From NCBI RefSeq assembly GCF_000304475.1, contig NC_018948.1:543728-607727 (forward strand): a stretch of 64,000 nucleotides of DNA, written 5' to 3'. This document shows positions 44,736-60,857 of this stretch, piece by piece (positions within the stretch are counted from its first letter, which is position 1; each line of letters starts with the position of its first letter). The translations under genes and the position numbers were made by a program. The stretch is from Kazachstania africana CBS 2517 (Eukaryota > Ascomycota > Saccharomycetes > Saccharomycetales > Saccharomycetaceae). Below the pieces are notes generated by a model. The model saw only the letters and a program-made list of their open reading frames with translations, was not told the DNA's origin and searched no databases.

Positions 44736-45599
44736 TTACCAGCAGCTAGACGTCCACGTCCAATCGTCCCCAATTTCAGCACAGGGCATGGCCCAAGGAT
44801 TATATATACCGCCCGAAGTGTTGGACATAATCCGGATGTCCATATTATACATGTCATCGTGGTCAATATGTAATGAGAAACCTGTTATTCCACTATTATG
44901 CACTGACTCCAATGCAATTCGAACAGCACATTTTATTTTGTCTACCAGGATGTTGTCAATGTGATGATCACTGCCAGTCGACAAAGGAGACACGAAAATA
45001 GTCCAGGATGGAAAGAGGTCTATAAGAATATAGTCAACTGAAAAATACATTCTATTTTGTAGAATTACTAACAATGTCTCAACTATGTTCCTAATGACTG
45101 AGATGGTGTTCGAAATAGCCTGTTTGCAATACTGGGGGAAGAATTTCCAATTCAAACCATACTTCTCATGAGTAAGTTGTAAAAAATCATTCTCCTTATA
45201 ATGTTTTATGTATGTGCTACTAAAGGTCTTACCGGTCATGTTTTTAAAGTAGTTCTGGGTCTTGACTTGATAATTTTTTATAGTTCCATTAATTATATCC
45301 AGCGTAACAAGTTGACAATACCTATAAGCACAAGTATCAACTAAAGTATAATGACTTGAATTCGTACTAAGTTGCTTGGAATATAACGATTCCCAGTAAT
45401 CCATGGCAGTGGGATACGTTGCCGGAATAGCTTCACTTGTTCCATTGAAAGACCAGTAGGTAGTACTTGATTTTTCCAATTGGTCGCCTTTGATAAATAT
45501 GACACCTGGAGATCCTCCAGCTACTGTAGAAAATTGAAGGGCAGTGGCCACCAAATACCATGAAATAATGGTGAAAACGAAGTCATTTTTCTTAATCAT
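44736..45599 (-). CDS. Subtelomeric secreted protein, family A (killer-precursor-like, function unknown)
   Basis: An intact 287-residue frame starts at an ATG (45597-45599). The N-terminus has a signal peptide (MIKKNDFVFTIISWYLVATA, about 1-28). Six or so Asn-X-Ser/Thr sequons follow. The C-terminal region aligns with the protein at 46386-47189: a conserved His followed after exactly 26 residues by MPC (Cys near 273). It lacks three of the four module cysteines present in the best-preserved members but has others. I do not recognise it in S. cerevisiae. A secreted toxin-precursor-like role is inference from the family pattern only. Confidence 0.6.
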   Translation of the reverse strand: MIKKNDFVFTIISWYLVATALQFSTVAGGSPGVIFIKGDQLEKSSTTYWSFNGTSEAIPATYPTAMDYWESLYSKQLSTNSSHYTLVDTCAYRYCQLVTLDIINGTIKNYQVKTQNYFKNMTGKTFSSTYIKHYKENDFLQLTHEKYGLNWKFFPQYCKQAISNTISVIRNIVETLLVILQNRMYFSVDYILIDLFPSWTIFVSPLSTGSDHHIDNILVDKIKCAVRIALESVHNSGITGFSLHIDHDDMYNMDIRIMSNTSGGIYNPWAMPCAEIGDDWTWTSSCW

Positions 45600-46320
45600 A
45601 CTACTACGATATGTTTATTCAGTGGCTGGTTGTTATGTGCTGGGAAAAGTGATTGTTGCCTCAGAGGCATGACGATCTTTAAATTTAGCAACTAACTCAG
45701 TCAAAAGGTTTGCTCTCTTTCAGCTTAGCAAAAAATTTTCTTTCCTTTTTACACTTCAGTAGTGATTACCCGAAGAAATGAACCTACAATGGGTACTCAA
45801 GTAGTTCGACTTCAGATTAGACTACCAGATATGCTGTCCATATTGGGATATGATATTTACTTTTTGAAGAAGTTTTGATAAAGAAAATTGGCAACTTTCT
45901 CTCAGACCCTGAAAATCAATGGAAAAATGCGTAATATTCCGTTTACGAGACACCGTTTGCAACCATCTACAAAGAAATGCTGTTGCTTCCAGGGTTTGTT
46001 GCCAGAAGACAAATGATGAACAATTCGTGATACGATGCGGGGTTTACCTAATGACTGGCATGCAACAGCTAGAAAAGCCGGGAGAAAGTGAAGTAATCCC
46101 GTTTTGATTCATATTTATTCCAGAAATCTGCCAAATACTGGTAACCGAAAGGTACAGGGAACGAGAAGGAGATTGGAAACCGTCCCACATACTTAAAAAA
46201 AGCAGCCAAAGTTTTGCCCTGAGCTGCTCATATCAAAAACTGTATAAAGTTCTCTTTTAGGTAATGAAGCATGTCTCTTCTTTGGCTTCTTATAGAGGAG
46301 ACTAGAGCCACAATTAGAAC
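45600..46320. other. Intergenic sequence upstream of two divergent family members
   Basis: No supported gene is present. Short ATG frames at 45919, 46265 and 46271 do not resemble any family. Confidence 0.4.
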
Positions 46321-46385
46321 ATGCTACCATTTCTTCTTTTTTACCCTTCGCTACTGCGAATAGGCTAGTGTATGACATTTCTGAC

Positions 46386-47189
46386 ATGGAACTTACACTC
46401 CAAGGGGGAGCAGTGTTTGATGGTCAAGCGCCTAAATTAACGGACCATAGGGACACTTCCAATGTAAGTAACGTGATTGGAACTAATATGTCCTGGTCTG
46501 CTTTTGACCCTGCTAAAGGGCATATCGAGCAGTCCATCTTAAGTTATGATTTAGGAGATGGTTACAATTTGGTTCATGCAAAAAATGTCATTCTCACTGA
46601 TAACGATACTACCGATGCATGGTTGGCAGCTGATCAAAACAGTACTATAAGCAATACTGGTATCAAGAAACGAGACGATGGGGATACTTGGTATACCACC
46701 TATTGTAAGTATGCCTGGGATACAATCAGGGTTGAAGTCACTACTTTTTTTTACAATATCAAAGATAATCCAGTCAGTTTTATTGCAAATCTGACCACTG
46801 CAGCTACAAATATTGCAACTATGATCAAAAATGGTTCTCAAAAGAACAGTTGTGGAAGTTCCGATGTGTATCTTCTAACCAAAGATGATGGAGGGAAGTG
46901 GGAAGTCGCTTGGTCTAGTTGGACAACAGGACAGAACTGCGATACCACTGCCCAATGGAATGAAATTTCATTTGCACTACGTAATTGCATTAATGACTCT
47001 GAATATGAGCATAAAATGGCCCTGTGCGTCAGAATGAACCATGGAGGTACATGGCATGCTGATGTAAGGGTCCAACGGAATTGGGAAAAAGCGTACTCAA
47101 ATATTTGGGATATGCCATGCGGTAAAGCACAACAGTCAATCGTAGTAGATGATGGTACGTGCAAAACTGATTATGCGAAAGATTTATGA
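46386..47189 (+). pseudogene. Subtelomeric secreted protein, family A, probable 5' frameshift
   Basis: The frame is open from 46296 to the TGA at 47187-47189, but its first ATG is 46386, giving 267 residues without a signal peptide. A hydrophobic signal-like start exists just upstream in another frame (ATG 46321), so a frameshift near the T-run at 46335-46341 probably broke the gene; an intron cannot be excluded. The mature part has a Kex2-type KKR at residues 94-96. It also has the complete cysteine module (C156, C185, C214, C245, about 29-31 apart), and a conserved His219 five residues after C214. It is one of the best-preserved copies of the module in the window. Confidence 0.6.
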
Positions 47190-47338
47190 AAATGGCGGCA
47201 CGAAACTCTACACTGTTCATTCATTTTATAAAATTACAAAATTATAGAAGGTGTTGCGGCTATTCAAGGTCAAACATTTTGTTAGTGCCTTTAAAAATTA
47301 TATCATATAGAATTGTACATCAAAGTAAAATTAGCAAC

Positions 47339-48345
47339 TTAACAATTTATCACTATAAGTACGAGTAGTATAAACTTATAATCCTTTGTAATCAATAAAA
47401 AATATTTATTCCATGTAAAAAAGTTGTACGTCAGATCCAGTATCTCATTGAGTCCAATAACACTTACATAGTAAATTCTTAACGAGACTTCCGGAGCTTG
47501 TATATCATTAGTGTCTCCACATGTGTACACCTTATAATAAGCAGCTTTCCACGTACCATTAACATCATTTGCCAAAATCTCATTTAGCTGATTTTTATGT
47601 CCTCGACTAGTATCGAGGCTCTGAGTTCTTCTGGTTGGCACAAAAATCGAGTGCAAGAAGTCCAGTGCATCATAGAGAGTACACTGGAAAGTCCTGATGT
47701 TTTGTAACTATCGAATTTATCGTATTGACTGCGGGCATTATTGATAATGTTCCTATAAATTCAGAAAAGGAGTCATATATTGAATGATACACCTAGGAAG
47801 TCCTCTCGTTCTGTAAGTAAATTGGGGCTTGGTCAAATTTATCTTGGCTAATGGGTTGTCAATTTGGTACTATTTTCCGGACTCTGATTGAGAATGGTGA
47901 TCAAATAATAAATCAGCAACATAAGATAGGTCATACAGACCATTAGTGCTTTCCAATGCTTAAACTGCCTTCTTCTAACTGCAGTGGATTTGACACCTTT
48001 TAACGTTCCATTTGGTATTCCTTCAAAATACCAGTGAATGTATATTGATATTAAATTAAGAACGAGACTTGTCGCCAAATTACTTACCGAACTTGCACAA
48101 TCTAGAGATGCAGAATCCTCATGGTTATTCTTACAGATACTACGTGTGTCTATCGCAGCTTCAATAGTTGTACTGGATGATGCGACAAAAGAAGCCCACC
48201 ACGCTGCTTTTATTACAACAAGTTTATCGTCCGGAAAATAGGCATAAGCCGTCGTGACAATTAAATGAATGTAATCATAATCGGGAACTGTTGCAAGGGC
48301 AACAACAATAAAAGAAGCAAAGCAAAATAAAGAAAAAAAACGCAT
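47339..48345 (-). pseudogene. Broken secreted-family gene (N- and C-terminal parts separated)
   Basis: The N-terminal part is an ATG frame (48343-48345) of 165 residues with a clear signal peptide (MRFFSLFCFASFIVVALAT). It contains a Cys/Ala/Ser-rich amphipathic stretch (CASSVSNLATSLVLN) and ends at a stop at 47848. A second frame, open from about 47706 to 47339 without an ATG of its own, carries a degenerate copy of the cysteine module (GTWKAAYYKVYTCGD). About 140 bp with stops in all frames separates them. I see no yeast branchpoint or GTATGT donor that would make this an intron. Confidence 0.55.
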
Positions 48346-49497
48346 TGTTATTTTTCGCTCAGGCTAATAGTTCTTGCTATAGTGGGTCACACTGTTAAAA
48401 TTACTTCAACAATCTTTTCAACCACTGAAGACTCTAAAGACGGTCATCTACTAGATTGACTTGGTTCTTTAACACTCATTCAAAACTAAAGAACTGTTGT
48501 AAAAACTACTCTTGCAATGTTGTGAGGCGATAATTACCATTCAAAAATCTAAAGAAGCCTAGTCTTTTTTCACATTATGTAAGTATAATTAGTAGAGATA
48601 CCAAAAAATTTCCGGATACAGAAAGAAAAGTTTCAAGGAACGACGAGATGTCTCTCGAGCGTATAAAAAGCTGTTCTTGATGATTTGAGCCATTTAATGT
48701 GACCAAAAATGGATATAATAACAGATTGGCTTTCTTCGCATTGTTCTCAGAGAGGAATCATAGTGATACATCCCTCGAGATGACTTTTCCAATTTCTAGA
48801 AAGAAAGAAAAGCGCGCACAAAAGAGACTACGTCATTTCGCAGAGATAGGCAAATGAATGTTGCGCGATCCGTGCTGCAGATTCTGAGAAAAGAAATTTT
48901 TGGTATGCCGACCTTTTTTGGAGTTTCTTTTTTTGACGTTTTTCATTTGCCTAAAAGTTGATGAGCTGTCAGCATCGCCTGTTTGGGACAATACTTATTG
49001 TCATGCGGATATTATTACAACGAAACCCTCCGGAGGAACAACAGAGCCTTGTGTGCTCACTCAACTACATGAAGCTCACTATAGTTTAAGAAAGTGTGAT
49101 AGTTATAGTCGCCTAACATTCAATACTTTCAGTGAAATGTCATGTGGCATGTTAGATTCATGCCGTTTGGAATTTCCATAGCAAGTATAGTTGTCAGTGA
49201 TATGAAGTATTTTAAGTGACCTATTCAAACAGAGAGACTATGTGCTCCAACTACATCAGAACTGCTAAACTCGATATGTTGCCACATACAATTGTGACAT
49301 ACTCGAATTATTCTCATATTCAAAAGATTACATATCTTAATCTTCTCGTCATCAGGGCACGATATTCGAAACCTCATATAACTTGAAGTATAATCTCCCA
49401 TTTCATATTTTATGTCTACACTTTTATGTGACCTTTCCTTACCAATGAATCCTGGATCACAGTCATTTGACGAATTCTGGCGCCATTTTACTTAGCA
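48346..49497. other. Degenerate subtelomeric sequence
   Basis: There is no intact gene. A 93-codon frame at 48900-49181 lacks an ATG but begins with a hydrophobic, signal-like segment (FLEFLFLTFFICLKV) followed by several cysteines. It may be the remnant of another secreted protein. Confidence 0.35.
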
Positions 49498-49803
49498 ATG
49501 TCACATTCAAAAATTACATACTTCAGAGAAAACTTCAATAGTAAAGTATCAACCTTAAACAGCATAAGCAAACAATCTACAGCGTCAAATTCTCGACGGC
49601 GTCCCGCCACATACCAAAACAAACACCTAATACTATCACACAGACAGGACATTGCTCTCTATTACGTCACCAACTCTATGATGTTCTTAAAAAAACAAAA
49701 AATAATGTGTGGGAGAACTAACATCCCCCGCTTCTGTAACCTCATTACCAAGGCCCAAATCCGACTCTGCTACAAAAACGGTGTAGAACATCAACAACTA
49801 TGA
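49498..49803 (+). CDS. Hypothetical 101-residue ORF (doubtful)
   Basis: This is an ATG-initiated frame with no recognisable domain, signal peptide or membrane segment. It is basic and Ser/Asn-rich. A frame of this length can arise by chance in this region. Confidence 0.15.
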   Translation: MSHSKITYFRENFNSKVSTLNSISKQSTASNSRRRPATYQNKHLILSHRQDIALYYVTNSMMFLKKQKIMCGRTNIPRFCNLITKAQIRLCYKNGVEHQQL

Positions 49804-49940
49804 CCAGTTTGAAACAACAAAGGACCAACAAAATAGCTCGGGGCCTACTGCTCTTTGCATGTTGGACCAGCAGGTAACCACAAGCAAGAGGCAACGTTTT
49901 TTGAACAACGAAGAGAGACTGTGATTGCTGCCCGTGGAGA

Positions 49941-50237
49941 TTATACTATATGTATCGTAACTATCGGCCATTGCATCAATAAAATTACCAAATCCGTGGC
50001 ACAGAGATGAATTACCAAGATTGTTCTACCAAATACCAGCTCGAAAATCGCGACTTTCATGTTAATCGTTTTGCCCCATCCAACTTCGAATTGGTCTACA
50101 CTATCGCCATTCAAACTTTGCAAATATGGGGCACCGATGGTTAATAAATTGCATTTACCATTCATGATATTAAAGCCACCTTTCAAGTCCGTCAATCCAG
50201 TCGTCACTTTTGGGAACTCCATTACCTGCGTCTTCAT
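49941..50237 (-). pseudogene. Coding relic of unknown family
   Basis: The minus-strand frame of 98 residues from the ATG at 50235-50237 (open further upstream to 50288) shows gene-like composition: a Gly-rich, beta-type stretch (GGFNIMNGKCNLLTIGAPYL), then a hydrophobic end. No complete gene surrounds it. The frame closes at 49941 and nearby sequence in other frames also looks partly coding, so I read it as a decayed fragment. I do not recognise the family. Confidence 0.3.
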
Positions 50238-50288
50238 GAGGACTCCATAATAAAACCAGCGAGGAGCTTGCAAGACCAAGTTCGTCAA

Positions 50289-51147
50289 TAGAGCAAAGTC
50301 AACAATTAGTACCCCTACAACTTTTCTTACTTTTACCTCGCAAGCACAGCTCCTCTGAAAAAGAAAAATCCATGACAGGAACTGTCACCTAGTTCATAAT
50401 CTCAGATAAAATTGTCGTTGGTGGAGTTTCCCATAAGCAGTGCACTCATATCAAGATTATTGGCCAGATCGAGAATCAAGTTAAACGAATTTTTCAAAGT
50501 TTTATTAGACTCATCCAGAAGAGTAATGTCAAGCTTACTACAATTCAGCACAAAATTACAGGTAGAGTGCATGCCCCAATAACCTAACCTGACACTACTT
50601 AGAATTTATATTAAGCAACCAAGGTCCTCTCAAAGAAAAATTCGGAAAATTATACTGGTCAAATGAAGAAGGTTATATCATTTGACCAGATAATGCTTGT
50701 ACGTTGGAACGTCTATGACGCTTCAAAAATTGATTATCTCTGCCTTGAAGCCTAAATGACATTAAATTTTATGGTCTCTTCTTCAATAAGCAATATTGGG
50801 AATTGAATTGCCATATGTCAATTGCTGAATTTGCTCTTGTATGTGGCAGCTATCAAGTTAACTGGAGAATCCCATTGATTGGACTCGCGGTTGGTCTCTG
50901 AGTGTGGTTTTTGTAAGATGTTTTACGGACACTACTGTGATAGCATGACAGCGACTGGTGTGAAGAGTAAGCAACTGTCAGCCCTCGTTCAAAATAATTC
51001 ATAATTTCACGACGACAAAGCTTATATAATCCTCCATAATATGACGTCTCTGTAGTATGCGATTTTCTCGAGAAAAAGTACTATATAAGGAGAGTTCCTA
51101 GGCACCGCAAATTCTCTGGCAAAATAAAGTCATCAAGTAAAAGTTGG
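50289..51147. other. Subtelomeric sequence without a gene
   Basis: No coding frame is supported on either strand. Promoter-like TATATAAGG at 51082-51090 precedes the membrane protein gene at 51148. Confidence 0.4.
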
Positions 51148-51980
51148 ATGGAGATGGAGATGGAAAGTCATAAAATGCAAAATGATTTAGATAGCGGTAC
51201 TATTTCAAACGGTGGAAAACATTCCGGTGATACTAATTTTTTAGTAAGCTTCCACCAAAGAATTTATTCTATATTGTCTGCTCAAGCGTTCTTTCTTCTT
51301 GTCACAGAAAACCTAATTTACCGCTGGAAACCTGCATTGACTTTTGCCATTCAGTATTTCTGGCCATATATCGTAAGTGTAACGATTGCGTATGCATATA
51401 TGTTCATCATAAACGGTCCTGCGAGAAATGCAAATTGCCAAAAGGAAACAGCTGATAAGGGGTTATTACTAAAGAAGAAGTCCTTTCTAAGGGTTGAATA
51501 CTTTAAGAGAGTAGGACAATTTGTCTTTGTCTTCTTTACTGGACTGGTACATACGTGCCACTTCGCATGGATCTCTTTATGCTATGAAAACTTCAATGCA
51601 CAATTTAAGTCTTTAACGATTTCTTTGATACTTATATGTAGCCTGTATTATGTGCTATAGATACAAGCAGCATACTCTTTTTTCAAATATGCTTATAATT
51701 AACATAGGGAACTTCAACATGTTCTTGTCCAATAATACCTAATAAAATCGTCATGTGCTGCTATAGCGAGCAATGTGGTTTTGTTATTTTACTCTCGTAC
51801 GGTAGGTGTTCCCCTCTCATGGCTAAAGTATGGTGTACAGTAACCATGATAGTGTATAGTATTTTGATCAGTACTATAGTCTCACAAAAACCGCCTCCTG
51901 GTAGTGACAGTACAATCGAGATAATGCTTTTCACTATAATTCCCATTCAGCAAGTTGGAACAATGCTTTTTCAAGCATAG
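51148..51980 (+). pseudogene. Multi-pass membrane protein, apparently split by a frameshift or stop
   Basis: An ATG frame of 170 residues (51148-51660) encodes a polar N-terminus and about four hydrophobic segments (about 46-58, 70-91, 124-140 and 150-168). It ends abruptly inside the last hydrophobic segment. A second frame (51753-51980) adds two more hydrophobic segments with a Pro-rich loop between them (SQKPPPGSDSTIE). Together they look like one six-segment membrane protein that is broken, although the first part alone could be expressed. There is no signal peptide. It lies between secreted-family genes. The family is not recognised. Confidence 0.45.
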
Positions 51981-52841
51981 GCGATACTACATTCACTACA
52001 AAGATATATAGGACATTAATATCTCAAAATTTCTCCATTCCTCTTCATTTTACTTTTGGATGAATCCCCTTTGAAGCACCGCAAATATCTCCATTTCATA
52101 CAACTTCAACTAGTTTTGTTACTCAGTACTTTGCACTGCATTAACATGAAAATTTGTCGACTGTAGAGGTAAATAAAACTAAGTAATTACTTAAAGTTAT
52201 AGGAATTTCGAGAAGAGATGTGTAAAAATATTTCTATTGCTTACATAAATGGATGTATTAACAAGGATGAGGTCTTCTAGGATTTGTAGCATTTGAAAAT
52301 TTCCACCAGTGATTATTTTATGAAGACATAGCTTAAATTAACACTTCTAAATGTAGCTTGCACGAATACCGAATAGTTTAGTAATGTCTAATAATTACAG
52401 TTACTGAATGCTTAGTACAGTTTTTCTGGTATATGCAGTTTGATACTACAGCTCCTGTTTAAGTGCGTTTTGGAACCTAATCAGCATGCGCAATAGTCGC
52501 ACTGGTAACGTTACTGATTAAAATCATCATCCATCTAATTTTTTATAAAGGGAGACATATCTTTCTTTAGTGGATCTAACCTATAATGGATATTTAACTC
52601 TTCTGTCAAACAGATATTTAATTTCATTTGATCCTAATCAATGGACTTATAGAAGCTTAATTTTTGAGCTACAAGTTTTGCATTATATATCCACTCCATA
52701 TGTAAGAAAATTCACCAAATATAAAACGAATCTCTTAAAAGTTTATACCCAAGTTTCACTAGGAAACAAATTATTGAAAAGGTACCCTTCACTTATATTT
52801 ACTTATATGTACTTTATAGATTGAAAGATAGCTATACTGCC
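51981..52841. other. AT-rich subtelomeric sequence
   Basis: No gene is supported. An 84-codon frame at 52570-52824 has no ATG and no family features. Confidence 0.4.
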
Positions 52842-53777
52842 CTAGGCACCCCATCCCATCATACCCTCACAAGGTATATCATCAAAAGTCAGGTCACTTT
52901 CAGCCTCAAGAAATTTAATATAAACAGCTGAAGGTCCATTATGAAAGAATGAAAGACATGAACCTATTGTATTGTTTGGGATTTTTGTATGGAGAGCTTC
53001 GATAAGAAGCCTGTTTATTTCAATAGCCTCTGCATTGAAAGCGGAAAACGAACCCAGTTCTCTTTTATTCTTCGAATACCTATAAATTACATAATTGATT
53101 CTCTCTTCCTCCACCATTAGGTAACCTCCAAGACTACCATCTAGAGCAGATAGTGACTCATAGTCACCAGACCAAATATTGCTGATAGACATAGCAATAG
53201 ACGATGTCATGTCTGCCGTTGATACTTTGGATAATGGAGAGTTCGATTGTTTGTCGTTGTCAGCAACATGCATTATGAACACCCTTTGCTTCATGAACCA
53301 GTCATATAAACTTGAAACTTCATACTCATTGATTGGCGGAAGGGTACCATTGATAGCCACAGATCCACCGAACACCGTACTTAAATGATCAAAAAGATCA
53401 CGATCTAAATAAGCATCTGTCACATTAACATCAAAATCAAAATCAAGAAGGTGAGCCCTATTTTTAGCAATAGTACATATTGCCATAATATTTGTATTCT
53501 TGTTTTGATCGGCGGCAGAACGAGCTGCGATTGGATAATCAACAAATAAATTATTCAGCAAAATATAGATAATGTAGAGTCTATAAAGTTCATTCGAAGG
53601 ATCAAAGGGGTTATCAGGAGCTAAGGAAAAGTAATTGATGGAGGCTTCCTTGGTATCATGAAACAAAGATATATGCCTATATGTGGCAGAGACATCGCCC
53701 AAAAAATTCATTATAATAAGAAGGGTTAGAAGTAAATTAACACCAGTATGTTTCAGTGGACTGCAGAGCAGCTTCAT
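52842..53777 (-). CDS. Subtelomeric secreted protein, family B, copy 1
   Basis: The product is 311 residues from the ATG at 53775-53777 (upstream only a TTG). A basic, hydrophobic N-terminus (about 1-34) looks like a signal peptide. It is a clear paralog of the gene at 54738-55685: shared YFSLAPDNPFDPSNELYR-type segment near the N-terminus, RYSKN before the module, and a C-terminal FHNG...PCE...GWGA ending. It keeps module cysteines C274 and C303 (29 apart) and His279 but has lost the first two. It carries a Lys-Arg dibasic site where the paralog has Gly-His. It is intact, tandem and co-oriented with the paralog. The function is unknown. Confidence 0.65.
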   Translation of the reverse strand: MKLLCSPLKHTGVNLLLTLLIIMNFLGDVSATYRHISLFHDTKEASINYFSLAPDNPFDPSNELYRLYIIYILLNNLFVDYPIAARSAADQNKNTNIMAICTIAKNRAHLLDFDFDVNVTDAYLDRDLFDHLSTVFGGSVAINGTLPPINEYEVSSLYDWFMKQRVFIMHVADNDKQSNSPLSKVSTADMTSSIAMSISNIWSGDYESLSALDGSLGGYLMVEEERINYVIYRYSKNKRELGSFSAFNAEAIEINRLLIEALHTKIPNNTIGSCLSFFHNGPSAVYIKFLEAESDLTFDDIPCEGMMGWGA

Positions 53778-54737
53778 TTTTTCTAGTTCAATGGTGGCTA
53801 CTGCGACAAAAAGATATAAAGTGACCAACAAAATTAATTAAAAGACTCTTCATCCATGAAGAACCTCAAATTTTCCGGACCTTAGTGTTTTTTATTGGTA
53901 TATATATTATAAAATATAAACGACAAGAGGATCTGATTTGGTATAAAAATGCGGCATTATATTTCACCGAGACTCAAACAGGACATGAATGAAAAGTTCC
54001 TATGATCATAAAAGGGAAAAGTACATTTTGGTTGCATTGTATAAGACTTTAAATGGTAACTTGAACCGACTCCAAGCACATATCTTAGTTTCTGCTTTCG
54101 TTTTTCTTAATAAGGTAAGCAGCACGAGGGGAGCACATCATGAAACCGTTTGCGAACGCATAATTTTGATGAATACTTGGAAAGTACTTATTTTTGGCAC
54201 TCACTGATATGCATTTATAAGCGATATATTGTGTGTGTCGTCATTGAGCTGGTCAGACCACCTTGTGTAAACTAAAGTGAAGATGGTCATGAAACCGAAG
54301 AAATCAGGTAATTTAACATATTGAACAAAGTGGGTCAGAATAAGCAGACTTTCCTTCAATATCTTGATTTCGTAGTAAATGGTCCAGTCATGCTACACGT
54401 TACTCTTTCTAAAACTTTTTATTGTCATTTGTTTCACCGGTATAGTAGATTTTTCTCAACTATCAACTTTTAAGCAAATAGTTTAATAATTCATGTTGAC
54501 CACAAGAAATATAGCTTTTGCATTGCACGTGGCATTTTGTGGTATGACAATCTTTGATTCAATGAAGTTAATGACTCCTATTCAGTGCGAAAAGAACCTG
54601 GGTTAAAAATTAATTACTTAAGACAAAAAATCAAGGCGCATGCTATAACTATATATACCAAAGATCATAAATCTTAAATAAGCTGATATCATTAACAAAA
54701 TTCCTTTTAAAAATCTTTTCCGGTAGAAGGAAACAAA
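53778..54737. other. Spacer between the two family B genes
   Basis: These 960 bp have no supported gene. The upstream 350 bp probably hold the promoter of the 52842-53777 gene (TATATATAT at 53899-53907). Confidence 0.4.
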
Positions 54738-55685
54738 TTAGGCAGATACAGTACCAGCTACAGAGCCTGGTGCACCCCAACCGGAAATAGCTTCGCAAGC
54801 AACGTCATTGAAAGCTATTTTACTATTATGTCTAATGAATTTGGCATAAGCAACTGTAGATCCATCATGGTATAAAGTGACACACGCTGATGTTGTACCT
54901 CTTGGAAACTTGGTATCAATAGCTTCTATCAAAACAACTTCCAAGTCAGTACCTTTTGCAAAGTTACAACCATGACCATTTTTTGAATACTTGTAAACTA
55001 TGTAATCAACTTCTTTGCCATCAACTTTAACGGTGTTAGAATAGGAGCCACATATTTGAGTTGAAGAGTGCTTTTTATTTGACGAACCATCGGTCACAAA
55101 GCCGTAAATATTACTTACAATGGTCGAAAGGCTATCAGCTAAAGAAATAGCAGACAGCCAAAAACTAGAATCACTTCCTTTGTCGATGGTGCTGACTATA
55201 TAAGACTTAGCCTTCTTATAAGAATCAACAGCCATTTCCCTGTAATATCTTTTCTCAAAATTTTCGAAAGTCATATTAGAAATATTTGTACCCGTGAACA
55301 GAGCATTCAACTCACTAAAAAGTTCCATATCAATGTAACTGTACACCTCGTCAGACCCTTCCTCGTATAATTCGGAATAATTTGTGACGTCAATGTTACG
55401 AATAGCTACAATGCCTGTTTCATTGTTTGGAGTCATTAAAGATATGTCTTTTGTTGGATGATTGTCATACAATTGACTTAATAACTGAAAAGTGATATAG
55501 GGCCTGTATAAGTCATCAGCAGTGAGGTAAGGGTTTCCGGGAGCTGGTGAGAAGTATTGTGCGGCTGCCTCATCGGTATCGTTTAATAGTGTTGTGCTAT
55601 TATCCACAACAGATGCTGTAGCATAGGTTAGAAGGCACATTGAAGCGATCAAGGTTAAAAAGGAATTGATATTGAAAAAAATCAT
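54738..55685 (-). CDS. Subtelomeric secreted protein, family B, copy 2
   Basis: The product is 315 residues from the ATG at 55683-55685. A signal peptide covers about 1-24 (ILSMCLLTYATA-type hydrophobic core). Several N-glycosylation sequons follow. An amphipathic Ser/Ala/Ile stretch (LADSLSTIVSNIYGFV) precedes the complete cysteine module: C212, C240, C268 and C297 (28, 28 and 29 apart), with His273 five residues after C268. It ends SGWGAPGSVAGTVSA. It is the best preserved intact family member in the window. Secretion is supported; a toxin-like role is inferred from overall architecture only. Confidence 0.7.
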   Translation of the reverse strand: MIFFNINSFLTLIASMCLLTYATASVVDNSTTLLNDTDEAAAQYFSPAPGNPYLTADDLYRPYITFQLLSQLYDNHPTKDISLMTPNNETGIVAIRNIDVTNYSELYEEGSDEVYSYIDMELFSELNALFTGTNISNMTFENFEKRYYREMAVDSYKKAKSYIVSTIDKGSDSSFWLSAISLADSLSTIVSNIYGFVTDGSSNKKHSSTQICGSYSNTVKVDGKEVDYIVYKYSKNGHGCNFAKGTDLEVVLIEAIDTKFPRGTTSACVTLYHDGSTVAYAKFIRHNSKIAFNDVACEAISGWGAPGSVAGTVSA

Positions 55686-58600
55686 TGAAGTGGCTACCGA
55701 CAAATATTTCTATTGACTTCTACTCTCTTTAGGTTGAGGAAAAGAAAATAGAGAAATGAAAACTAAATGACATTGAGGAACCTGCCTTAAATAGAAACTT
55801 TTGATCGTACTAGAAAGTCTGCTTCGAGTATAGATAAAAATCACAATCAATAAAGCAGATACTAAAATTGATGGGAACGCACAACTTCAGATACCACAAG
55901 TGACATGCCACACGTGTGTCTCAGTGACTAGTACACTAATAGTAAAAAGTTAGCGGTACCAAAGCAAACCTACAATGACCTATGTCTACTAACTGATAGC
56001 TGAATATGTAACCTGCAGCAGCGTACTCCAAAAATTCCTTTCTTGTGTGCATCTCGTTTATATCTCGACTAAGAGCAAAATCTTGTGGTGTCTGCACAGA
56101 ATTTTCAATGCTACCTGTAGTTCCAGAAGCAAATGTCTGCCAGCATCGTCGTTTGAAGGGCGATATTTTTCGGTTGCAAAACTGAAGTTTTAGAGATTGG
56201 GACCCTAAGCAATAGCTTAATAAACGGCGGAGAAAATATTTGACGTCAAAAAAAACTTCGCTTGTTGGCACGCGCATTCTCAGGATGCAGCCATTTATTG
56301 TGAATCAAACAACTTAAAATTTGTGAAAGATCAATGACTTATGCCCTCTTTTAGTATCAAAACATACTAAACTGAGAAGGCATTGACACGCGAGAACTTC
56401 AAAGTAATGAAATCGTGATCGTCCAGGTGCTAATACCCTCAGGACAATGTACATAACTACCTCACTTCCTCTGAATCCAGTCGAGTAATGGCACCAAAGA
56501 GCAGACAGTAAAATATTCGGTTCTAGTTTCTAAAGGTCTTAGACTAGCACATTAGCGACTGATACATTAATACATAGTTTTTAATCCCGTTGTCTTGGTC
56601 TATATCCAGTTGCTAAGGGCACATAACACATTATGCATCGATATGATATATCTTGAAGTTTTATACTTACTTCAACATACCTGCTTATCTAATATGCTGA
56701 AAATGTAAACTGCCTGAAAGAAGTAAGCTACTTGGAAATATTACTTAACATTGGAACTTTAGTTTATTTTGGTTTGAAGGATGCCGCTGCAAGATGCGTT
56801 CAATGCATATCTTGCTTTTTTGATTGCAAAGTAAAACTGTCTCTCTTCCGTTGCAATTGCAAGAACAGCTACAATTTCAGTAACATTGAATCAAAATCAA
56901 GCCAATTCGCACTGTAATCTTCATACGTCAGCACTATGGATCGGAACTCCTAACTCGAGCCAAAAAAACTGAACTTGAAAATAGATTTCTGCGACTAGCT
57001 TTTGTTGGCGTACGTTAGATACCGGACAGGGACCTTTTGTAGCCATAGTAGGACTATTGTTTATTTGGGTCATAATTACAGCAACAAACACTGGACAGTA
57101 AAGTAGTTATTATATACTCCAATCATCTATGGTATAAAATATATACGGGAGAAAGAAAGTCTAATAGATAAAAAAAGATAGAAGATATAAGGCCTTATAT
57201 ATGTTGGCTTTGGCGCGATTGTACACATACATTGAATATGTGTCACGGAAGGGCCACTAGTTTCAAGATGAAGGCAATTGGATTCTTTGGGAGATGAAAG
57301 AAAAAATTATTAAATTTGAGATTAATTGAGGGTTTCTCCAAAGTATGTGCAATCTCTTTCATAAAGTTAGCATTGAATTTCAATGGTATAGAAGAAAAAC
57401 ACTAGTTTTATTTGGGATCATAACTCATGTCCCCTTTCTGGTAACCTGTTGACCCTCCAATAGCGAGACAATAATGAATACACCCAGTAGTTTTGCATTA
57501 GTGTTAACTGATATGCTATGATTACTAAAATCACTTTTGTCACATAAAACACCTACTAATCAACGTTCTTATTACATTGCGACTAAGCAGACTGTTGTAT
57601 AATTGAAGGAAATGACCAACTAAATTTCTTATAACCTTAGTAAATCAGTAGTTTCTAGATTCATCGTTAAAATAGTTGGTAATTGTATTTGGTTAGTTTC
57701 TTGATGCCAATGCCTTTAATCACTCCGTCATAAACAGTGAACTTGTAAACTATTGCCGTCACACCGGACACTGTAACAACACATATTCTTACGACCTTTT
57801 TACCCAAATATCTATAACCTCTTCATAGCAGCAGGAAAGCAATCAGAGTATGCTACCAATACTAATATCATTTAAAGCTGTTTTAACAATTACTACGGTT
57901 TCCCATAGAAACATGACCCATCTGTCTGGTGGCACCAGAACTATACTAAGGTCGCATTTATTACCGTAGAATTGCCCAAGGCTTTTTCAAGATATTCGCA
58001 TCCTTCGCAAAGGACTGACAACATTGACGAGGTTGCCGGGGCACCGCCAAAATGATCAAAATATATATACGAAATCTGGTATCATCTGCACAAGTTACCT
58101 TACCGTCCCAAGAACACTGACTTACTCTATTACATTGGGTTCCGTTGGAGCTGGAGTTTACAAACCATATATTCAATGTATACATAACAAGTGTGGTTTC
58201 AGAATAGTGTCACCAACTGTGCCTTCCTGGGTTTAAAATAAAAAGAGTAGTTAATATCGGTAAAGACTTTCCTTTGGTAGAGAAATGCTATTGTACCATA
58301 TGAAATGAAGGGAAAGAGTAACTCGAAGAATATTTAGAGTGTTACTAATATCTCAACGTTACCAGTTATTCTATCGATGGGAAATGCTTCTTCCATATGT
58401 GGATAGTACATAGAGAGGGACCACTAAGAGTTTTTTCTCAGAATAAAGGAGAAATATCCAATATCAGCTAGGAGCCATAGAAAGAGAATAGAGAAGTGAG
58501 CAAGACGTACAGTGCTTCCATAGGGCTAGGATGAAGCAGCAAGCCATTGAAGAAAGGAAAACGCTCAGAAGTGCCATTAGGTAATAACAGTGATAGCTGT

Positions 58601-60611
58601 TCAGATATAAAACAGCCACATATTTTCACTCCTATATAAATAAATTAGCATATTAGGAATGCAGACACCAAGAGTAAATGCTGTACCGAGTGCATGAAGT
58701 ACGTGAATTAACATACGTTCCTACGCCACCGCATTTGGTGAAACTTACAACTCGCCAAAACGGTCAGCGACAATTACGCTATTTACATATTCTTGTGGTG
58801 CTGTCACTTTGTAAAACTGCCTAGATAATTGGGTGAATCTGACAAAATGAAAAAAGCAAGTATTCTATCATAGCAAACATGCTGTCACTAAGGTTATTAG
58901 GTGCTATGACACTGGGATATGATATTTCAGAGGAAGATGTGAACTATAGTAACAGATTGATATGTAGTTTGTAGTTCTAACACGACCTATTGCTTCCGGA
59001 GATAAGGAATTTGTGCTTTCTTTTCACAGAAACTGCCTCGAATAACATGGTTTGTAACAGTTTAACCCACATTTGTAAATATTGTATTCAATATCTCGTG
59101 CAAAAATGCGATTTGTTGTGTCTGTTTTTTTAAGTACGAAACTTATACAAGAAGGATACATTTGTAACGCAGAGATTCGCCTCTCATGTTTTTTCCGTTC
59201 AGTCTCAATGACGAAAACATTAACACTAATATTTAACTGTACAATAGTACCTTCTGCTAAAAAACTTTACGGCAGTCGCTATGGATGATACCAATTTATT
59301 CAAATGAATCAAATATGGTAACATGGATCCCAAACAAGGAGCAGCTGTGCCTCCTCCAACCATCTTGAGAACTCGCTATCCTTTTCATGTTCCAAATACA
59401 GATTATACAGGTGCACTAATGACTCTCATAATTAAAGGACAGCGAAATATATTCTTGGGTGGGTGGTAAAACACAGCTAATTATCATTCCACAATCATAT
59501 CTACAGTAAAAATAACAAATCTTGACGTATGAAAAAAAATGGAATGAGTTCATCACAAGAGTATCTTGATATCTACTTGCTACACATAATATTATAGGCC
59601 TAATGCAAGAAACAGTTATCTATTCGAAACCTGACTGCGGAAATCTGTTCCATTCCTCGGGCTTGTATTTGCGGACTTGGCGAATGGTAAAAAAACACTG
59701 ATTATCCTATTCGGAAAACATTTACTAAAGAAGATACTAGCTTCCGGAAATGAAATAGAACTTCTTAATTTACTGAAATCAGTCTTCACGTTTGGACGGA
59801 TTTTATATCTCGTATAGGTTTCTTACCGAGTAACTTAGATGGCTTTTGAGAGTCTGTAAAATTTGCTATTTTTCACATTCTACAGTTATGGATAGTGCTT
59901 ATATTTGATAGGAGGTCTCTTTTTAATCTAAATATGTGTATATTTGTGCTGTTTCATGAAAATCCGGTGATAATATCGGGACAATTGTGGCAAAAGTGAG
60001 GTAGAAACTCGATAGAGTACGTGTTTCATTACTGCTGTACGGGTGAAATCCGTGGCAGATAATGTGGGTTGAAATATTTGCTTTGCAAGCATGTATATCA
60101 GACCGCATTACAACCTACATGAGTTCTTAAATATGCAGATAACATCTCTTACTTTTTTCGGCCAGATAGAAGTATTGCCGTTTGAAAACGGTGTACTCTC
60201 TCAAATTACTAGACGTATGCTTGTCTATTTTCCGTTGATGTATACCGGATCACCATGAAACACCAGGAACTTAGTTTACCAAAGTGTCTGACGTAGGCAC
60301 TATAATCAATTTCTTTTGTAAAGCCGCTGAGTGGAGTCTTTCAGCAAAAGAAAAAAAACTTTTGTCGCATCTTAATTTTCGAAGCATTTGGATCTCTATT
60401 CGTGTAATCGCATTGGGTTACAGTATAGCGAAATATAATATATATATATATTTATCGTCATTCTTCTCATTCAAACAGAAAATATCTATCAACGGCAAAC
60501 CAATGATATATCGCTATTGGTAGAGTGAATATTCTGAGGAATGCTCTATTAGTAATTTAAGCAAGCGCAGTATGGGGTTCCAACGGCTGGCAAAGGTATG
60601 CGGTCAATAGC
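55686..60611. other. Decayed subtelomeric region, no intact gene
   Basis: Nearly 5 kb carries only short open frames without family features. Possible relics of the secreted family are at 55936-56277 (N-terminus only) and 58024-58236 (a Cys-containing, signal-less piece). I see no tRNA, LTR or helicase-type Y' sequence. Confidence 0.45.
55936..56277 (-). pseudogene. Possible N-terminal relic of a third family B copy
   Basis: The ATG frame begins MRVPTSEVFFDVKYFLRRLL, which matches in spacing the start of the 54738-55685 frame read from its upstream TTG (SVATSMIFFNINSFLTLI). Similarity fades after about 25 residues and no cysteine module follows. Confidence 0.25.
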
Positions 60612-60857
60612 GTGATCACATTTTCTAGCCTATCAAGTTTGAGTATAGCCTGTTATGTGGCAACTAACTGCGGTTTCTCTTTCATAAGTACTAGGCACTT
60701 AGTTACTGGTAGTACCACACTTCAACAAGCTGGCTCATGCATTAATGCAGCCGCATCAATTGTTACTATGGTGGCAGCAATTTCATGGCTGTCAAAGTGT
60801 GAGGGCCAGAAAGAAAAGTATAAATGGAGAAGAGTGTGTTATGGTGCATTAGAATGA
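60612..60857 (+). pseudogene. Relic of the secreted family (amphipathic Cys/Ala segment)
   Basis: This is an 81-codon frame without an ATG. Its GSCINAAASIVTMVAAISWL stretch resembles the CASSVSNLATSLVLN segment in the broken gene at 47339-48345 and the LADSLSTIVSNI segment of 54738-55685. No signal peptide or complete module remains, so I read it as a fragment. Confidence 0.35.

Follow-up and report, generated by a model that had tools for sequence, protein, structure and literature searches.

Introduction

What do four related open reading frames (ORFs) near a chromosome end of Kazachstania africana CBS 2517 encode, and could any of them be a killer toxin? The stretch of DNA analysed here (the window, 64,000 nucleotides) comprises bases 543728–607727 of the 607,727-base contig C9 from a genome of 12 contigs and 11.1 Mb; KAFR_0F00129, KAFR_0F04445 and KAFR_0F04440 are database proteins of the 888,590-base contig of the same genome. 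The window is taken to represent a chromosome end of K. africana and finishes in TG-rich telomere-like repeats. An earlier note, made from the sequence alone, had described the four ORFs as secreted proteins of an unrecognised family sharing a four-cysteine C-terminal module, and had considered them killer-toxin-precursor-like. All four were found where that note had placed them. Sequence comparison indicates that they are relatives of the killer toxin KHR of Saccharomyces cerevisiae, encoding apparently secreted proteins that are now labelled hypothetical.

Profile searches have thereby named the family as KHR/Klus (PF20521), a described killer-toxin family; KHR and Klus have been grouped as one family, named from overlapping homologues (PMC13211469). 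The killer-toxin-precursor reading is supported at the level of sequence, and the observation as a whole was partly confirmed. The ORFs, named below by their first coordinate, and their modules are as follows.

44736–45599, minus strand: A2, 287-aa cysteine-depleted paralogue, divergently oriented neighbour of 46386 (cysteine alignment, profiles)
44781–45047, minus strand: module region of A2 (cysteine alignment)
46386–47189, plus strand: A, KHR homologue (PF20521; 48% identity to KHR), which a KHR-like frame enters from 46326
46851–47120, plus strand: four-cysteine module of A, C156 to C245, with His219 (cysteine alignment)
52842–53777, minus strand: B2, 311-aa cysteine-depleted paralogue of B1, lying 3' of B1 in the same orientation (alignment, identity to B1)
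52869–53141, minus strand: module region of B2 (cysteine alignment)
54738–55685, minus strand: B1, 315-aa secreted-type precursor with all four module cysteines and KR at 145 (ORF list, alignment, profiles)
54795–55052, minus strand: four-cysteine module of B1, C212 to C297, with His273 (cysteine alignment)

Assignment to the KHR family

In a Pfam scan of seven window ORFs, PF20521/DUF6736 matched 46386 at 59.9 bits, above the cut-off of 27 bits; the S. cerevisiae KHR protein itself scores 51.5 bits. A search of 46386 against 5.8 billion proteins returned four matches including itself, all with PF20521, and the one named Killer toxin KHR from S. cerevisiae aligned over 96% of the query at the identity given above. 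On these comparisons the homology of 46386 to KHR is close to certain.

The same scan gave no PF20521 match up to E 10 for 44736, 52842 or 54738, the last showing two weak sub-cut-off matches to other families. These three are called relatives or a sister branch rather than Pfam members because they do not reach the PF20521 cut-off, and in 54738 and 52842, unlike KHR, the sequence is too divergent for the Pfam model. They were compared with three A-type hidden Markov models (HMMs) from which every window sequence had been excluded; the comparison covered 45 targets, of which 44 were ORFs of the window and the other a C6R protein, together with the reversal of each. With all three models 44736 was, like 46386, clear of every non-family target, and its homology to KHR is extremely likely; 44736 is 50% and 47% identical to two four-cysteine genes on contig C11. 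The scores of 54738 were 25.2, 26.7 and 11.5 bits, against best scores outside the family of 2.6, 4.2 and 3.5, a likeness to the A group beyond what chance would give. Furthermore, BLASTP of the DUF6736 protein L043 against 54738 gave E 2e-5 with the four cysteines and the histidine aligned. In hhalign, a broad A alignment scored 33.7 against B (100 shuffled decoys at most 18.5) and a narrower one 24.9 (decoys at most 21.2), with low probabilities from the program itself (33%, 25% and 2.8%). From the HMM scores, the BLASTP match and the decoy comparison taken together, A and B are judged homologous, and the split between them proposed in the earlier note is real. The short DUF6736 type gave no hhalign match to B, which aligned with KHR and the long types, and sequence similarity thus places B as a sister branch nearest to these. 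Homology of 54738 to KHR is accordingly rated as very likely. The scores of 52842 (6.2, 5.1 and 4.2 bits) were barely clear of the non-family targets; because these are weak and the protein is 34% identical to 54738 (E 3e-42), it joins the family through 54738, and its homology to KHR is likely, with slightly less assurance.

A search with 54738 matched itself and two K. africana proteins and nothing else. When seven aligned B sequences served as the query, one further K. africana protein was gained and nothing more up to E 10, this search requiring shared five-residue words, which remote relatives may escape. The B branch thus appears divergent and has so far been found in K. africana alone. 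Genes now labelled hypothetical acquire a family in this way, and the Klus/KHR group would gain a divergent branch to which the Pfam model is blind.

The cysteine module

The spacings reported earlier proved exact: the cysteines lie at C212, C240, C268 and C297 in 54738 and at C156, C185, C214 and C245 in 46386, with a histidine five residues past the third. The distance from this histidine to the last cysteine, by which the family had been split, is indeed 24 residues in 54738 and 52842 (B) and 26 in 46386 and 44736 (A). The cysteines of 46386 align with those at 194, 224, 253 and 284 of the 306 residues of KHR. A model of mature KHR has disulfides 189–219 and 248–279, plus two bonds to the alpha domain, and the precursor model retains only 248–279 (PMC13211469); these positions differ from those of the KHR protein used here by a constant shift of five. 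Since the cysteine positions match after this shift, the module is identified by alignment as the KHR beta-domain module.

The cysteine alignment contained 21 sequences: the four window ORFs, KHR, P0005, P0007 and 14 other copies from the same genome. Start-damaged copies (the C3 twin of 46386 and B1 of C2 and C6 right) were read from a downstream Met, and any copy broken elsewhere as well was omitted. All four cysteines were present in 16 of the 21 sequences, 46386 and 54738 both reading CCCC at the KHR columns, and the histidine in 20 (N in C5_L044). Four cysteines had been claimed for all four frames, which is correct for these two ORFs and not for 44736, which keeps only C4 and the histidine, or for 52842, which keeps C3 and C4. 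The incomplete sequences are 44736, two B2 proteins (no C1 or C2) and two short-type proteins (no C3 or C4, the alignment of C4 being less sure). In each of two lineages, then, precisely one predicted disulfide has gone, both of its cysteines together, and such paired loss, of C1–C2 and C3–C4 in different lineages, lends evolutionary support to the modelled disulfide pairs; 44736, with three cysteines lost, fits no pair rule. Because one and two of the four module cysteines remain, 44736 and 52842, which differ from KHR in this respect, are not filed as toxins.

Structure models were of low confidence. The order helix-strand-strand-helix-strand-strand was predicted over the module region of both 46386 and 54738; KHR-like fold matches were obtained for the 46386 model only and not for the 54738 model. 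The amphipathic segment described before the module was not confirmed: the best 18-mer hydrophobic moments before C1 were 0.44 (46386), 0.56 (44736), 0.45 (54738) and 0.33 (52842), which are not exceptional on this measure because they lie below the 95% point (0.57) of a best-of-42 background with a median of 0.40.

Precursor features

A signal peptide had been assigned to all four proteins. Judged by eye, it appears present in 44736, 52842 and 54738 and is missing in frame from 46386, which differs from KHR in this. From stop to stop the 46386 frame spans 297 open codons, with KHR homology in frame from 46326, yet contains no ATG upstream of 46386 and hence no in-frame signal peptide; an ATG at 46319 lies in another frame. 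Its twin on contig C3, 94% identical, also lacks an in-frame start with a signal peptide and is broken elsewhere near the start. Damage to the gene in this strain and an assembly error are the two candidate causes, and the best reading of 46386 is a start-damaged KHR homologue with its start out of frame. The bodies of the twins differ by nonsynonymous (dN) and synonymous (dS) divergences of 0.025 and 0.078, while most flanking bins are 74–86% identical; since the bodies are far closer than the flanks, a local conversion tract between them is suggested.

Putative Kex2 dibasic sites differ among the genes. In 46386, KR95 occupies the place of KR133 of KHR, before the alpha segment as in KHR, with which this protein also shares PF20521, the four module cysteines and the C-x4-H motif. 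A KR site is present in two of five B1 copies, including KR145 of 54738, whereas the sole dibasic site of 52842, KR238, is inside the module, and none was seen in 44736 on inspection of the alignment.

Copies, selection and chromosome-end exchange

PF20521 was found at 15 places in the genome, 13 of them above the cut-off; the distance to a contig end is no more than 25 kb for seven and at least 58 kb for eight. Copies of B1 are present at five chromosome ends (C9 right, C3 right, C2 left, C6 left and C6 right), and a B2 gene or remnant adjoins each of them. Four of the five B1 copies are without internal stops, that of C6 right having a stop in the signal-peptide region; in the C2 copy no start precedes the Met that corresponds to Met16. 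From Met16 onward dN/dS was 0.14–0.47 in all ten pairwise comparisons, and by this measure B1 is under purifying selection. The B2 frame is unbroken in C9 and C6 right and broken at the other three ends. The two unbroken B2 genes (dN 0.34, dS 2.0) and 44736, compared with its two C11 relatives (dN 0.37 and 0.40, dS 2.0 and 1.7), are open for 286–310 codons; shifted-frame controls showed no such gap between dN and dS, of which only the direction is safe because dS is saturated. The best reading of 44736 and 52842 is thus that they are maintained cysteine-poor paralogues. The rapid decay supposed for these genes applies to 46386 and to several copies elsewhere, not to the 54738 type, 44736 or 52842.

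The outer part of the window is shared with another chromosome end.

55690–58477 (to at least 58477), no strand: tract shared with C6 right at about 99–100% identity, starting about at the B1 start codon

Outward from this codon C9 and C6 right are about 99–100% identical; inward, identity is about 93% in the first 100 codons and drops to roughly 70% beyond them. This pattern identifies a recent chromosome-end exchange with its inner edge about at the B1 start codon, and the exchange put the same upstream DNA before two different B1 bodies. The copies of C3 right, C6 left and C2 left lack a stretch of about 0.9 kb (53700–54570) that lies between B2 and B1 and takes in the 5' end of B2. A 94-aa frame (60573–60854) has a C6 right copy at 100% protein identity. 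At least two relics had also been proposed in the window; however, comparison of family proteins with the window by tblastn (E<=0.01) matched the four ORFs alone, and the frame ending at 60857 matched just itself and its C6 right copy.

Among the remaining PF20521 places, two genes in mid-chromosome (G000:C7:450756-451109, minus strand, and 452343-452696, plus strand) lie 1.2 kb apart in opposite orientation with identical scores and are an inverted duplicate. Three PF20521 genes, all at least 58 kb from contig ends, have a transfer RNA gene (L004:2555-2629, L043:2425-2496 and L046:1065-1149) no more than about 0.6 kb away (three of 13 loci scanned), which resembles the tRNA-adjacent KKT insertions of other yeasts (PMC7888664).

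Discussion

The explanation that fits best as a whole is that the locus is part of a KHR-like gene repertoire with a killer-toxin function, a reading held with moderate confidence. Building on the homology, the cysteine alignment, the selection on B1 and the chromosome-end copies, all of which are established, processing, disulfides, toxicity and target may be pictured as follows. The precursor would enter the secretory pathway and lose its N-terminal pro-region, by Kex2 cleavage at KR95 in 46386-type proteins and possibly at KR145 in 54738; the alpha segment and the four-cysteine module, with disulfides C1–C2 and C3–C4, would then fold into a small alpha/beta sandwich and injure rival yeasts at their membrane or surface. 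The best reading of 54738 is the intact KHR-like toxin-precursor gene of this locus, and it would be the candidate toxin gene of this strain, a function that seems somewhat probable; 44736 and 52842 would be maintained with a changed role, and copies would spread and swap between chromosome ends. That the family includes toxins is known; the additions are the K. africana B branch, the pairing with cysteine-poor paralogues and the chromosome-end exchange.

Three reports weigh against a toxin function. In M satellite-free 100-genomes strains no killing by KHR was observed (PMC10542562), the KHR/Klus family includes CSS2 with no known function (PMC13211469), and another candidate, KaKKT2, has been tested for K. 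africana killing (PMC7888664). The CSS2 of S. cerevisiae, an extracellular Klus homologue, is also the starting point of the strongest alternative, namely that genes in or beside the DUF6736 family serve the producer (surface, wall or colony) and are not toxins. The eight PF20521 places distant from contig ends are unlike a purely subtelomeric toxin set and agree with this; however, 46386 stands closer to KHR than to the short type of DUF6736 protein, since of the seven short-type places (L001–L007) only that of L003 is among the 11 matches of a 46386 search, and the B group aligns with KHR and the long types and not with the short type. A producer-serving role is considered unlikely on this balance. 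The likeness to Klus and CSS2 in alpha segment and beta module is taken from their description in PMC13211469.

Still less probable is a reading in which the genes are for the most part the decaying remains of an earlier toxin repertoire and have no function today. Such decay would account for the differently broken starts of 46386 and its C3 twin, the three broken B2 loci, the stop in B1 of C6 right and the late start of the C2 copy, but not for the low dN/dS of B1 or for the open frames of 44736 and the two unbroken B2 genes, in which dN is well below dS (a rough ratio, given saturation).

The least probable alternative, that 44736 and 52842 are immunity or decoy proteins against the adjoining four-cysteine relative, draws on their having lost cysteines independently and stayed open beside such a gene, on the presence of B2 or its remnant at all five B1 loci and on truncated relatives discussed as possible KKT immunity genes (PMC7888664), but B2 is broken beside B1 at three loci, plain tandem duplication also yields adjacent paralogues, K. 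africana is sensitive to its own toxin made by S. cerevisiae despite its truncated KKT genes (PMC7888664), and Klus producers resist their own toxin by a mechanism that is left open (PMC13211469). Equally doubtful is the corresponding picture of chromosome-end two-gene cassettes, each with a four-cysteine KHR-type toxin and a maintained, cysteine-depleted protecting paralogue (54738 with 52842 and, in parallel, 46386 with 44736), an arrangement not met in the parts of the Klus/KHR literature consulted. If it were true, the B cassette would represent a new killer-toxin branch, so far confined to this species, with a built-in immunity gene, and the cysteine-poor paralogues would offer a handle on the self-survival of Klus/KHR producers.

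Regarding the toxin-repertoire reading preferred here, part of the repertoire may already have been noted, because Ksino of Candida sinolaborantium is a structural relative of Klus and Ksino-like genes are listed in K. africana (PMC12875307). The names of the present genes were not met in the literature searched, its supplementary tables lying outside the coverage.

Neighbouring genes

47848–48345, minus strand: 165-aa ORF, corresponding by homology to the N-terminal portion of L059, a 310-aa gene near the C12 end

The L059 protein appears to be a K1-like precursor. The ORF has 14 matching stretches in its own genome including itself, of which 13 lie no more than 35 kb from a contig end, a count made without the length of C8. 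GAAAAA begins 11 bases upstream of its ATG; this motif near the ATG, and truncation too, have been reported for K. africana KKT genes (PMC7888664). It is probably a C-terminally truncated K1-like KKT gene. As with the present family, K. africana KKT killer genes are multi-copy near chromosome ends (PMC7888664); the four genes nevertheless showed no link to this group, as the three A-type profiles gave the 165-aa ORF -1.0, 4.2 and -1.4 bits.

A 170-aa membrane-type ORF at 51148–51660 (plus strand) matched no Pfam family above cut-off in the scan. It has seven matches in its own genome including itself, five of them in frames of 263–283 codons, and the window copy may be shortened.
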